Positions 43,769 to 48,272 of a DNA stretch of 64,000 bases are shown here, piece by piece. The position numbers and the translations under genes are program-made. Within the stretch, counting starts at the first letter, position 1. Each line of letters begins with the position of its first letter. The notes beneath the pieces were generated by a model. It made no database searches and was not told the origin of the DNA. It was given only the letters and a program-made list of their open reading frames with translations. The stretch lies in assembly GCF_030733745.1 (NCBI RefSeq), contig NZ_JASHIK010000020.1, forward strand, positions 1-64,000, read 5' to 3'. The stretch is from Stappia sp. MMSF_3263. Lineage in GTDB: Bacteria; Pseudomonadota; Alphaproteobacteria; Rhizobiales; Stappiaceae.

Positions 43769-43844
43769 TGGTGCCCAGGGCCGGAATCGAACCAGCGACA
43801 CGCGGATTTTCAATCCGCTGCTCTACCAACTGAGCTACCTGGGC
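43769..43844 (-). tRNA. tRNA-Phe (anticodon GAA)
   Basis: The minus strand folds into a 76-nt cloverleaf. The acceptor GCCCAGG pairs with CCTGGGC, the D-arm is AGCTCAGTTGGTAGAGC, the anticodon stem GCGGA/TCCGC encloses the loop TTGAAAA with GAA, and the T-arm has GGTTCGATTCC. CCA is encoded. The flanks (43517-43768 and 43845-44022) show no protein gene; there is no sign of an integrated element at this tRNA. Confidence 0.96.
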
Positions 43845-44022: not shown

Positions 44023-46827
44023 CTACTGCTGGCCGACGACGACGCCGGTCGCCGTGTAGGTGCCGGTCGGATTGCTCAGCCCGAAGCTGCCGACCACGCC
44101 CTGCGCCGGGCCCGCGGGACCGCGCACGAAAGCGCCGGTCAACGTGCCGGAAATATCGCCCTCCACCTCGGCGATGGCACCGCCGAAGTGATTGAGCGAA
44201 GTGGCAAGCCCGGCCGGCCCGGCGATCGTCCCGCCGACATTCACGCCGTCGAAACCGGTGATGCTGGCCGAGCCGACCCGCGAGCCGAAATTGTAGGTCA
44301 TGTTGAAATTGCCGGCCGCCAGATACTGGGCCTGGCCGCCCTCGGTGCTGCGCGCGACATTGCCGACCGCATGTCCCGAGTAGGAGGCAGAGCCGGTCAT
44401 TGGCAACTCGCCGAAGGTGGAAACGTCCCCGGCCGCCCAGGTGCCCAGATGCACGATGTCGTTGCGCTGAGCGCCCGGCCCCGTCGCCGTGGTGTCCTCG
44501 CCGGCGAACCGGGTGCCCCAATACCCCCATTCGAGAAAGGCGCAGGTACAGCGCGCAACGTCGGTGAACAGGGCGTCGTCGGCGCCGCCGACCAGTGTCG
44601 AGGGCACCATGAAGCTGCGCGGATTGCTGTCCGGCACCAGCACCTCCTCCGCATCGGTGATGGCGAAGGTTTCGCCGAAATTGTGGGTCAGGGCGTAGGT
44701 CCCGTCATCGATCAACGCCGACTGGCCGCTGGGGCCAGTGGTGAACAGGCTGTCGCCGAAGCCGAGCACAAGGCCGGCGAGATGCGGATCCCGTCCCAAT
44801 ACGTCGGCAACCGACATGCCGGCGCCGATCGAATTCGAGGTCGCGTCGAATACCATGACGAGCGCGTCGGGCGTCACCGACCAGAACGGAGTGGCCGCCC
44901 CGCCATGGGAGCCCGCCTCCACCATGCCCGAGGCAAAGCCGTTCAGGACACGGGAGGTGCGCGAATATTCGGAGATCGGCGTCGCCGACTGGAGCTGCGC
45001 CACGTGCAGATAACCGGCCACCTGCTCGCCCGGGCTGTCATAGGGCGAGGGAGGAACGGCCGAGACATCGTGGCCCACATCCCGCGTATCGAGCCCGTAG
45101 CCAAGGACGAAGGTCTCCGCGTCGGGGCCGAAGACATGGCTGCCGTCCGCGGCCGCAACGGAGCTGACGGGGCCGGCGAATGAGACCGAAGGACCATCCG
45201 CCGACGCCCGGTATCCACCACGGCGCGGGCCGCCGACAACAAAGCCGCTGGTCTCGTCTTCGTGGATCCGTCCCACTGACAGGGAGATGGCCGAGGACTG
45301 GGACATGCCGCTGCCCTCGATGTTCATCGAGGCAACAAGGAAGCGCGGGTCATCGGCAATCAGGTCGTCACCCGCCACCAGCAGCAGGTCACTGGTGCGA
45401 ACATTTGCCAGAAAAGCCGACCCGAGCGCGTCCGCCGCAAGCGGATTGAGGAAGTAAAGGTCATGGCCAGCGCCAAGCCGAGCGGTGTGGACCGGGTCGG
45501 CGGACAGCCTGTAGCGACGCACCTGGGCATCGTTGTTGGCCCGCACCGCGGCCGGGTCGGTGCGGGTGCCCCAAAAGCCGAAGACCGGCTGGCCGGTCGC
45601 CAGAACCGGCGTCGATCCGCCCTCGAACGCGCTTAGAAGCGAAGCCGAAATCTCCTCGAAATAGGTGAAGGCGACGAAATGGTCGCCGCTCCTGTGAACG
45701 GTCCCCACCACGACGCGATCGCCGCTCGTCACCACCCGGAAAGCCGCCTCGTCACCGCTTGGCAAGGGTATGGCGAGCGTCTCTCCGTCGATCGTTCCGG
45801 TGATCTGCGTCCCCTCCTCCCCGACGGTGAAGACAACCTCACGGTCCGCGACGGTGCTGCCGCCAAGCAGGCCCTGGGCACCGGGATCGGTCACGGAAAA
45901 CGTCTCGGAGGCGGGAGTGTAGGATGTGCCGGCCGAGAGCACGCGAACGCGCACGGTCGACCCGTCGACCGGCGTGTCGGTCCGCCGCACGATGTCGTTG
46001 TTGGCGCCCCGGTTGATCACATTGGTGACATGCCCGCTTTCGTTGATGTTGGTCGAGCGCACCACCTGCGGCTTCGGCCGCGGCGCGACATTGGTCGTCC
46101 GTCGCCCGGAATTCGCCCTGCCCACCGGAGAGCGGGAGACCTTCTGGTCGGTCGGCGGGGTCGGGGCTCCGCCCGACTGCCCCGGCGAACCGGACAGCCC
46201 GCGTTGCACGCCGCCGATATCCGCCTGCGTGGTGCGACGGACGACAGGACGCTCCAGGCCGCCCGACAACGCCGCGGCAACCGAGAGCGTATAACCGCGC
46301 TCGTAGATGCGGCTCTGCTTGCCGTTCTTGCCGATGAAACTCAGTTCGTCACCGAAAAGCAGCGAGAACCGGCTTTCCTCTCCCTGCACGTTGAGATTGG
46401 CGATGCCGCCGCGGATGCCAATCGTGCCGACGGGGGTCTTGACGGTGACGCCGCCCGGGTTCTTGCTCAGTTTGCCGCCGACAAAGCGGGCGACGCCCTT
46501 GCCGAACGAGGCGACGAGACGACCGGTTCCCGCATCCGGATCGTAGACGAATTCATCGATCACCAGATCGGAATTGGCGCCCACCGTAAAGGTCGATCCG
46601 TCGACCAGCAGGATTTGCACGAGCCCGTCGCCGCGGGTCTCGATGCGCTCGCGAAAGATCAGGTTGTCGCCAAGGATGACCGTGCGCGCCGATGCGCCTG
46701 GCGGGGTTCGCGAGGCGTCCTGGTTGACCGCGGCGGCAACGCCCACCCGCTCGCCGGCACCGAAAGCGGGCGGGACGAGCAGCAATGCCATGCCGGCGAT
46801 GCCGGCAGCGCCGAGTTGCTTGTGCAT
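44023..46827 (-). CDS. Exported FecR-domain protein with C-terminal TbpB/hemophilin-like barrel
   Basis: 934 residues. A Sec signal (MHKQLGAAGIAGMALLLVPP then AFGAG) has no lipobox Cys. Residues about 25-190 are a FecR domain: GDGLVQILLVDGSTFTVGAN, SFGKGVARFVGGKLSKNPGG and TPVGTIGIRGGIANL. A Pro/Arg-rich linker (about 195-260) and a long middle region follow. The last 130 residues look like the TbpB/HphA eight-stranded barrel: NFNMTYNFGSRVGSASITGF, then GGTIAGPAG and LTGAFVRGPAGPAQGVVGSF. Barrels of this type are recognised by Slam translocons, and a Slam-like gene lies 35 bp upstream. It may therefore be a secreted or surface protein; its ligand is unknown. AGGAGCCTGAC precedes the start. 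Confidence 0.75.
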   Translation of the reverse strand: MHKQLGAAGIAGMALLLVPPAFGAGERVGVAAAVNQDASRTPPGASARTVILGDNLIFRERIETRGDGLVQILLVDGSTFTVGANSDLVIDEFVYDPDAGTGRLVASFGKGVARFVGGKLSKNPGGVTVKTPVGTIGIRGGIANLNVQGEESRFSLLFGDELSFIGKNGKQSRIYERGYTLSVAAALSGGLERPVVRRTTQADIGGVQRGLSGSPGQSGGAPTPPTDQKVSRSPVGRANSGRRTTNVAPRPKPQVVRSTNINESGHVTNVINRGANNDIVRRTDTPVDGSTVRVRVLSAGTSYTPASETFSVTDPGAQGLLGGSTVADREVVFTVGEEGTQITGTIDGETLAIPLPSGDEAAFRVVTSGDRVVVGTVHRSGDHFVAFTYFEEISASLLSAFEGGSTPVLATGQPVFGFWGTRTDPAAVRANNDAQVRRYRLSADPVHTARLGAGHDLYFLNPLAADALGSAFLANVRTSDLLLVAGDDLIADDPRFLVASMNIEGSGMSQSSAISLSVGRIHEDETSGFVVGGPRRGGYRASADGPSVSFAGPVSSVAAADGSHVFGPDAETFVLGYGLDTRDVGHDVSAVPPSPYDSPGEQVAGYLHVAQLQSATPISEYSRTSRVLNGFASGMVEAGSHGGAATPFWSVTPDALVMVFDATSNSIGAGMSVADVLGRDPHLAGLVLGFGDSLFTTGPSGQSALIDDGTYALTHNFGETFAITDAEEVLVPDSNPRSFMVPSTLVGGADDALFTDVARCTCAFLEWGYWGTRFAGEDTTATGPGAQRNDIVHLGTWAAGDVSTFGELPMTGSASYSGHAVGNVARSTEGGQAQYLAAGNFNMTYNFGSRVGSASITGFDGVNVGGTIAGPAGLATSLNHFGGAIAEVEGDISGTLTGAFVRGPAGPAQGVVGSFGLSNPTGTYTATGVVVGQQ

Positions 46828-46862
46828 GTCAGGCTCCTCGCTCCGACAGCCGATAACAGGTC

Positions 46863-48272
46863 TTAAAACGCCTTGACGACGCTCAGCGTCACGGACGCGT
46901 TGGAATAGTCACGCGTCTGGTAATTGGATTGCATCCGCCGGAACTCGGCCGACAGGGCAAGCGCGAAATCCGCGCGCAACGGCACCGTCAGCCCGCTTCG
47001 GAGCCAGAACTCGTTGTCCCGCTGGCTTTCGGTGAAGCTGACGGCCGGGTCGGGCCGGTCGTACTGCCGGCGAATATAGCCCGCATCCCAGTCCAGCGAC
47101 CAGGGCGCCTCGATCATCTCGACCGGCGAGGCAAAACGATAGGTGGCGCCGATACCGGCTCCTAGCTCCCAGCTCTGCTCGAAGCGGGCTGCCGCGTTCT
47201 CGTAATCACCGAGCACGGTGAGACGCGCCGACCAGTTGTTCGTCAACTGATAGCTGTGGGCCGCCTCCGCCAGGATCTGATACCCGTTGCGGTTGCTCAC
47301 TGTCGGGTAGACCGCGCTGTCGCGGAACCAGCGGTAGCGGTATTCGAGCTTTGCGGTCAGCGCGGAGCGCAGGCTCGGCTGGACGGCGACGCGAGCGCCA
47401 AGGCCGGTGGCGCCGGAATAGTTCGTGTCATCGAGGCGCACGCCGGAGAGAATGCCGTAGACGCCGAACCGTGCATTGTCGATGTCGAACCGCGCAAGGT
47501 TGAAGGAAGGACCAAAGGTCAGCTCCGCCAGTTCGCTGTTCAGCCGGGCACTGTCGAAATAGCGGCCGCCATAGAAAAGCAGGTCCGCTTCCAGCAGATC
47601 GCCCTGGGTGCCAAGGTCATAGGCGGCATGGATATTGCCGGCGATGAACACGTTCCAGTCGGCACGGCCGACAGCCGTATCATCCAGCAGGAAATTCACA
47701 CCGTTGAGCGTCACCTGCCGTCCACCGGGGCCGGCATTGGCATTGGACTGCCAGCGCAGGCCCGAAACCACCGTGGCCGAGAACTTCGTCGGCTCCTCGG
47801 CATTGTCGATCGCCGCCAGGAAGGTCTGCACCCGCTGTTCGACTTCGGCGGGAACGTCGGGCGCTTGCAGGGCCGCCTCGAAATAGGAGCGCGCTGCGTC
47901 GAAGGACCCCAGCCGGTAATAGAGAACGCCGAGTTCGAGCTGGATACGCGGCAGGCCCGGGGCGTAGATGAGCATGCGCTCGAAGGTCCCGATGGCCGCC
48001 TCGTAGTCGCCGATGCGGGCGGAGACGGTCGCGTACTCGAAGGCAATGTCGAGATTGGCCGGATCGCGCAGCATGGCCGCCAGAAGCTCGGTCTGGCGGG
48101 CTTTCAGCTGGTCGTCCGACACCGATGCCGCGGAAGCGGCTCCGTTCGCGGAAAACTCCGCCGATGTCGGAGCGGGCGCCTGGGCAAGCGCGTGACCAGC
48201 GAAAACGGCAACCGCCAACGCCGCACCAGCGATACGCATCACACCGCGCCGGGCAATCTGGGCCAAGCTCAC
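46863..48272 (-). CDS. Slam-like outer-membrane protein (TPR plus beta-barrel)
   Basis: 469 residues. A signal peptide ends GHALAQ. Residues about 50-160 are TPR-like helices (ARIGDYEAAIGTFERMLIYA, LGVLYYRLGSFDAARSYFEA). From about 165 to the end the sequence is alternating beta-strand typical of an outer-membrane barrel, starting FSATVVSGLRWQSNANAGPG and ending in Phe (SVVKAF), the usual barrel C-terminus. Size and order match Slam (DUF560), the translocon of the type XI secretion system. It is directly upstream of the FecR/TbpB-like protein, its likely cargo. GGAGGGGCTC precedes the GTG start at 48272. Confidence 0.72.
   Translation of the reverse strand: MSLAQIARRGVMRIAGAALAVAVFAGHALAQAPAPTSAEFSANGAASAASVSDDQLKARQTELLAAMLRDPANLDIAFEYATVSARIGDYEAAIGTFERMLIYAPGLPRIQLELGVLYYRLGSFDAARSYFEAALQAPDVPAEVEQRVQTFLAAIDNAEEPTKFSATVVSGLRWQSNANAGPGGRQVTLNGVNFLLDDTAVGRADWNVFIAGNIHAAYDLGTQGDLLEADLLFYGGRYFDSARLNSELAELTFGPSFNLARFDIDNARFGVYGILSGVRLDDTNYSGATGLGARVAVQPSLRSALTAKLEYRYRWFRDSAVYPTVSNRNGYQILAEAAHSYQLTNNWSARLTVLGDYENAAARFEQSWELGAGIGATYRFASPVEMIEAPWSLDWDAGYIRRQYDRPDPAVSFTESQRDNEFWLRSGLTVPLRADFALALSAEFRRMQSNYQTRDYSNASVTLSVVKAF

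Follow-up and report, generated by a model that had tools for sequence, protein, structure and literature searches.

Translocons of the Slam superfamily, the outer-membrane proteins of the type 11 secretion system (T11SS; DUF560, PF04575), join a TPR domain to a barrel, which in Slam has 14 strands. Their cargo proteins, among them TbpB, fHbp and HphA, are built of a Sec signal peptide, a TbpB-like body with a handle or pedestal, and a C-terminal eight-strand barrel of the fHbp/TbpB type (TbpBBD or lipoprotein C); they are either lipidated or soluble, and are encoded by genes adjacent to that of the translocon. FecR-like N-terminal domains are found in Lsa33, LipL45 and retention_LapA proteins, and FecR-domain surface proteins and LapA-type modules use other secretion routes. 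According to PMC9090332, Slam1 translocates unfolded TbpB in proteoliposomes, Skp acting as the holdase, and PMC12282271 describes the barrel at the C-terminus as the putative targeting domain of the known systems. Here we analyze two adjacent genes, P0002 and P0001, located in a 64,000-nucleotide stretch of Stappia sp. MMSF_3263 (Alphaproteobacteria, Stappiaceae; contig NZ_JASHIK010000020.1, positions 1 to 64,000), hereafter the window.

A preliminary description made from the window's sequence had proposed that P0002 is a Slam-like translocon and P0001 its cargo, and this proposal is supported by a profile match of the P0002 family to SlipAM, a match of the P0001 C-terminus to the fHbp/TbpB barrel, and conservation of the pair. 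We put at about 70% the probability that P0002 is a divergent Slam-superfamily translocon and P0001 its non-lipidated, FecR-bearing cargo, the two forming a branch of type 11 secretion. This reading is built on homology, domain anatomy, linkage and co-occurrence, from which we infer export, topology, a ligand and the role of FecR. As in the known systems, P0002 has a TPR domain and a 14-strand barrel, P0001 a putative signal peptide, a probably TbpB-like body and a C-terminal barrel, and the genes are neighbors; in contrast to them, P0002 lies below Pfam detection, the P0001 family carries an N-terminal FecR domain, spans about 590-1650 aa by ORF and is seemingly non-lipidated, no TonB receptor was found on the contig, and at some loci the partner of the translocon is a short FecR protein in which no barrel is detected. 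Classical alphaproteobacterial SlipAM pairs (L238, and marine cluster 3 of PMC12282271) belong to the same class and superfamily, but they have strong Pfam scores and lack FecR, as illustrated by L238, where a protein matching SlipAM at E 1.2e-32 is paired with a 338-aa TbpB_B_D protein.

The predicted structure of P0002 (pLDDT 90.8) consists of three TPR hairpins followed by 14 strands. In a single-sequence Pfam scan P0002 gave matches to TPR models and weak ones to other families of barrels, and in a single-sequence search of solved structures it gave TPR matches only. The search of P0002 against Slam/DUF560 suggested in the preliminary description was successful at the level of the family, with clean controls. 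In a smaller set of 26 homologs (A1; Pfam, E <=1), SlipAM (PF04575) was matched by 8 members and TPR_Slam by 10, and in a broader set of 46 rows (A4; E <=0.1) SlipAM was matched by 10 (best 3.9e-8) and TPR_Slam (PF24575) by 16 (best 0.0035). The homolog of genome G050, which adjoins a full P0001 homolog, scores 21.3 bits against SlipAM, or 23.5 bits together with its neighbors in frame, the cut-off being 22. When the P0002 family was aligned by hhalign with a reference set of 11 PF04575 members from the same order, an E-value of 4.5e-34 was obtained, and the broader set gave 3e-37 over its full length, a probability of 99.6 (E 5e-25) for the barrel alone and of 98.5 for the TPR domain alone, whereas the reversed control reached a probability of 1.6 and eight column shuffles <=0.3. 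These profile comparisons place P0002 as a probable divergent member of the Slam superfamily. That it might be an unrelated porin is ruled out by the profile-profile match along both TPR domain and barrel, a question that fold search alone does not decide.

The C-terminal barrel attributed to P0001 in the preliminary description is weak in the single sequence, with scores below curated cut-offs (FHBP_C, E 0.0095; slam_lipo, E 7.3e-6, 26 bits versus a cut-off of 80), and a single-sequence search of solved structures gave three weak matches (best E 0.03). It becomes clear with the family profile, which matched the C-terminal barrel of factor H binding protein (E 2.6e-6) and the C-terminal part of NHBA (E 0.024) among solved structures. 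Among the 40 members of the P0001 family set (A3, including P0001; E <=0.1), FHBP_C was matched by 23, TbpB_B_D by 15 and slam_lipo by 26. The P0001 model (pLDDT 84.7, with a low-confidence stretch at residues 234-288) retrieved TbpB first (E 1.6e-9) and then fHbp in a fold search, with HphA and NHBA further down, so that sequence profile and fold both identify the C-terminus as of fHbp/TbpB type. The middle 400 residues had been described as devoid of a recognized fold, a view that the model makes improbable: the 17 best TbpB/LbpB chains (targets of 500-600 residues) align over 616-778 columns, too many for the last 130 residues to account for, and the TbpB match therefore reaches into the middle region, which the model indicates is probably TbpB-like. 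The TbpB and fHbp matches likewise cover more than the barrel and may extend into a handle or pedestal before it, at low TM-scores and with a tool that gives no aligned ranges. A duplication of the C-terminal barrel in the middle region at the level of sequence was also considered and rejected, as its best alignment, at residues 600-700, had a probability of 1.9 and was not significant. A CxC-EWGYWG motif, a possible disulfide or metal site, precedes the barrel directly in 26 of the 40 members. The barrel is terminal in the other cargo proteins, unlike in a 2031-aa open reading frame (ORF) with a start that is likely too early (L145:5910-12005), in which about 650 residues follow the barrel match.

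At its other end, P0001 begins with a hydrophobic segment that has an A-x-A-like end, and no Cys occurs before residue 70, in agreement with the signal peptide without lipobox predicted earlier from the N-terminal sequence. The FecR domain proposed earlier was likewise found and is matched in 40/40 family members (E <=0.1), followed in P0001 by a conserved linker, 'GQxGG...PPT...NS'. Against NCBIfam (E <=0.1), 36/40 members match Lsa33 and 24/40 match retention_LapA (best 4.6e-5), whereas the scores of P0001 itself (17.8 bits against 420 for Lsa33, 14.3 against 50 for retention_LapA) are far under the curated cut-offs. The family profile also matched, at E 0.0015, a solved chain that we take to be an antifreeze adhesin. 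In the fold search, the FecR part was matched by the PupR signaling-domain chain 6ovk, which would fit P0001 being a FecR-type signaling protein retained in the envelope, with a sensing role like that of FecR and PupR. Anti-sigma regulators of this type have an inner-membrane helix and a sigma-factor partner, but in the P0001 model no helix beyond the putative signal peptide exceeds 12 residues, no sigma-factor gene is present among the ten scanned neighbors and no TonB receptor was found on the contig. FecR is, moreover, N-terminal in P0001 and followed by the TbpB-like body, and we regard a signaling function as very improbable.

Conservation of the pair was analyzed first in relatives. Among 61 of them, 26 have a strong P0002 homolog (E below 1e-60), which adjoins a long P0001 homolog in 17 (one of them, G027, broken) and does not in the other nine. 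Eight of these nine have the order short FecR, 5'-nucleotidase, Slam-like gene, and in the ninth (G006) the contig begins inside the nucleotidase gene. In G027 (L013, L056) the P0002 homolog lies in two frames and the P0001 homolog contains stops; this pair may be in the course of being lost together. A scan of named genomes yielded 64 loci, by title 63 from Alphaproteobacteria and one from a metagenome-assembled genome (MAG) titled Planctomycetota. A FecR gene was present in cis with the Slam-like gene in 62 of the 64 loci, and in 46 an ORF with FecR and barrel lies directly downstream of it, so that the pair is conserved as the preliminary description expected. The remaining loci have a FecR ORF of <600 aa without barrel (six; a split gene in L116, an ORF preceding a second FecR+barrel ORF in L117, and four short ones), a FecR ORF truncated where the contig ends (three), FecR upstream (seven) or no FecR (two; the contig starts inside the nucleotidase gene in L112 and ends inside the Slam-like gene in L157). 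In L117 (7422-11526, Roseibium hamelinense) tandem FecR ORFs of 304 aa and 1026 aa lie behind the Slam-like gene, the barrel being in the second. The pair of the Planctomycetota-titled MAG (L152), in which the Slam-like protein shares 33% identity with P0002, probably reflects transfer or faulty binning.

The co-occurrence proposed for alphaproteobacteria was then tallied in 385 genomes of the class, with limited first-look candidates scored per genome (10 and 4 in the class-genome searches), which makes absences less sure than presences. The barrel profile was found in 39 genomes at E <=1e-3 and in 26 at E <=1e-10, and the Slam-like gene in 87, including all 26 with the stronger barrel match (Fisher, 6e-19, a statistic that ignores kinship). 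Loci from this and the phylum-wide search were chosen by hand, not at random. In 29 of 40 barrel-centered loci FecR and barrel share one ORF, six of the other 11 being cut at the 5' end; the Slam-like gene lies directly upstream in 17, and one locus is a classical pair. In a phylum-wide draw of 299 genomes, the barrel profile (E <=1e-5) was found only in the genome of the window, and the Slam-like profile (E <=1e-15) in 13. In one genome (G555) a single Slam-like gene and six FecR+barrel genes lie on different contigs (L213, L222, L225, L228, L230, L233, L263), and one translocon may therefore serve several unlinked cargoes.

Several observations weigh against the translocon and cargo reading. 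On the side of the cargo, TM-scores with TbpB/LbpB are low (0.13-0.17 by query and 0.22-0.29 by target, rmsd >20 A), so that the lobes of P0001 are not placed as in TbpB and only parts superpose; 14 of the 40 family members lack the CxC motif; and a lipobox-like string occurs near the N-terminus in two of them (ahead of the hydrophobic stretch in L119, inside it in L147), the other 38, including P0001, being without one. Regarding distribution, 4 of the 39 genomes with a barrel at the looser cut-off lack the Slam-like gene, which the other 35 hold; in 22 of the 40 barrel-centered loci no Slam-like gene was found in the stretch fetched; and the barrel profile gave no match in nine Stappiaceae genomes, in G040 and G051 or in the SlipAM genome G058 (12/12 negative), with 3/3 control genomes positive. 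Regarding the translocon, no direct Pfam match of P0002 to SlipAM/DUF560 was obtained even at E <=10, and the best 50 matches of its fold search are generic barrels with no Slam entry, headed by BcsC and PelB, TPR-barrel exporters of polysaccharide. These last results would be expected if P0002 were a TPR-porin of another kind, such as a BcsC/PelB-like channel for polysaccharide or small molecules, and P0001 took another route or stayed in the periplasm. The match of the barrel alone to the SlipAM profile with clean controls, the constant pairing with a gene for an fHbp/TbpB-type barrel, and the lack of polysaccharide synthesis genes among the ten scanned neighbors make this explanation improbable.

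Across the subfamily, the element that stays constant is FecR. As 11 of the 12 genomes without a barrel match hold a Slam-like gene without P0001, the Slam-like gene apparently keeps a use without a P0001-type barrel. In 21 of 40 Slam-centered loci of the class, a FecR ORF in which no barrel is detected adjoins the Slam-like gene (17 of <600 aa and four longer), with FecR cut in one, upstream in one and not in reach in 17; the proteins of L246, L247, L252 and L257/L258 end like barrels, which may be too divergent for the profile. Six further loci, taken from 6 of the 13 genomes with phylum-wide hits, likewise all have FecR adjoining the Slam-like gene; two come from genomes that lie outside the class. 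On the other hand, when 25 PF04575-matched loci of the order were examined (flanks <=1.5 kb), FecR was not found beside 23, and the two having it belong to the FecR-linked subfamily. We also built a quick tree, unrooted and with long branches, of 119 Slam-like proteins, 97 of which were labeled by partner, as long where it has FecR and barrel or is a FecR protein of >=600 aa and as short otherwise. On this tree 10 changes of label are needed, or at least six when counted by well-supported branches. Among 24 short FecR proteins (<360 aa), 13 have two Cys in the last 15 residues, as has P0003, a short FecR protein of the window (CGYYC, CTYGC, CYYAC, CYPPSNC or CGNC; L104-L110, L113, L123, L124, L242, L245, L273), and 11 do not (e.g. 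L133, L146, L241).

With FecR constant and the barrel sometimes absent or undetected, the earlier view of P0001 as a barrel cargo to which FecR was fused may have to be reversed. In the extreme, the translocon would serve FecR and not the barrel; the short FecR protein would then act as the basic cargo or as a plug, and the TbpB-like portion would be a passenger repeatedly gained or lost. FecR in cis irrespective of the barrel, the partner changes on the tree, the nine Stappiaceae genomes with a Slam-like gene but neither P0001 nor a barrel match, the restriction of FecR adjacency to one subfamily of PF04575-matched loci and its extension beyond the class all speak for this. However, the putative targeting domain of known systems is the C-terminal barrel (PMC12282271), similar FecR domains are also seen where a Slam-like gene is lacking (G042 has four FecR matches and no P0002 match), the short FecR protein might assist in the periplasm instead of being cargo, and some of the 'short' partners, of 400-511 aa, may terminate in a barrel too divergent for the profile (L257 and L258 end AFAGQK-like). 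We consider this alternative a real but minority possibility.

If P0001 is indeed the cargo of P0002, it would be exported by Sec and cleaved by signal peptidase I, as its sequence suggests, and captured unfolded in the periplasm, where its C-terminal barrel would engage the TPR domain and barrel of P0002 by analogy with Slam systems. The chain would then pass through the 14-strand barrel and the TbpB-like body would fold outside. The likeliest job of FecR, N-terminal in the mature protein, would be to dock or hold the cargo at the translocon, as suggested by the weak matches to LapA retention modules (24/40) and to the presumed antifreeze adhesin chain, or to be recognized by the translocon, as suggested by its presence without a barrel. 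A bolder proposal, which we find rather doubtful, is that this branch swapped the lipid anchor for a FecR plug that holds the chain in the channel or its periplasmic mouth in a LapA-like manner, FecR being also a second, barrel-independent signal shared by the short FecR proteins that lack a barrel.

The features of the locus are presented in Table 1. The coordinates and sizes of both ORFs, their 35-bp spacing and the terminal Phe of P0002 agree with the preliminary description. The gap between the genes holds a GAGGAG ribosome-site-like stretch, and a terminator-like hairpin lies at 48424-48400, between the 5'-nucleotidase gene and P0002, although shuffled sequences yield such sites too; on account of this hairpin P0002 and P0001 may be a two-gene unit, and they are probably co-transcribed. 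A promoter scan gave nothing informative. P0003 shares 52% identity with residues 5-198 of P0001, and no barrel was detected in it. The 5'-nucleotidase gene P0004 is a neighbor of the Slam-like gene in Stappiaceae and may be no more than that. Directly behind P0001 is a tRNA-Phe gene (43769-43844), and the gene calls that follow the pair vary among the Stappia-group loci compared (the window, L062-L066, L074, L078). The ten scanned neighbors are housekeeping, metabolic, regulatory or transport genes, and the contig has no TonB receptor match (PF00593), the three of the genome being on other contigs, in keeping with the earlier remark that no heme or transferrin gene adjoins the pair.

Table 1. 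Features of the P0002-P0001 locus (window coordinates; all on the minus strand).
Feature	Coordinates	Strand	Description
P0002	46863..48272	-	Slam-like outer-membrane translocon (predicted), 469 aa, GTG start, C-terminal Phe
P0002, periplasmic TPR domain	47799..48116	-	Residues 53-158, six helices; TPR Pfam matches, model
P0002, 14-strand beta-barrel	46866..47789	-	Residues 162-469; model, barrel-only hhalign
P0001	44023..46827	-	FecR + TbpB-like putative cargo, 934 aa, ATG start
P0001, FecR domain	46351..46647	-	Residues 61-159; PF04773, E 1.3e-8
P0001, middle region	44548..45960	-	About residues 290-760, beta-rich, probably TbpB-like handle/lobe; model
P0001, CxC motif	44542..44550	-	Residues 760-762, CTCAFLEWGYW, the only two Cys, just before the barrel
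P0001, C-terminal fHbp/TbpB-type barrel	44026..44475	-	Residues 785-934
P0004	48478..50136	-	5'-nucleotidase family protein, between P0003 and P0002
P0003	50385..51218	-	Short FecR protein, 277 aa, same locus, ends CGYYC

The one survey of T11SS cargo that we found (PMC12282271) covered clusters 1 and 3 of ten and lists about ten cargo architectures, none of them named for FecR. The word FecR is absent from the main text of that paper and of PMC8406197, and among the papers listed in literature searches, which did not reach most subscription journals or supplementary tables, we found no report of FecR cargo in Slam or type 11 secretion. As no FecR architecture appears among the surveyed cargo, we take the FecR-linked divergent Slam branch to be a new variant. 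A subfamily conserved across many alphaproteobacterial families with another cargo plan would widen what type 11 secretion serves, all the more so with no TonB receptor nearby in the Stappia genome, and the FecR loci in which no barrel is detected offer a way to test if export always depends on the C-terminal barrel as its signal.

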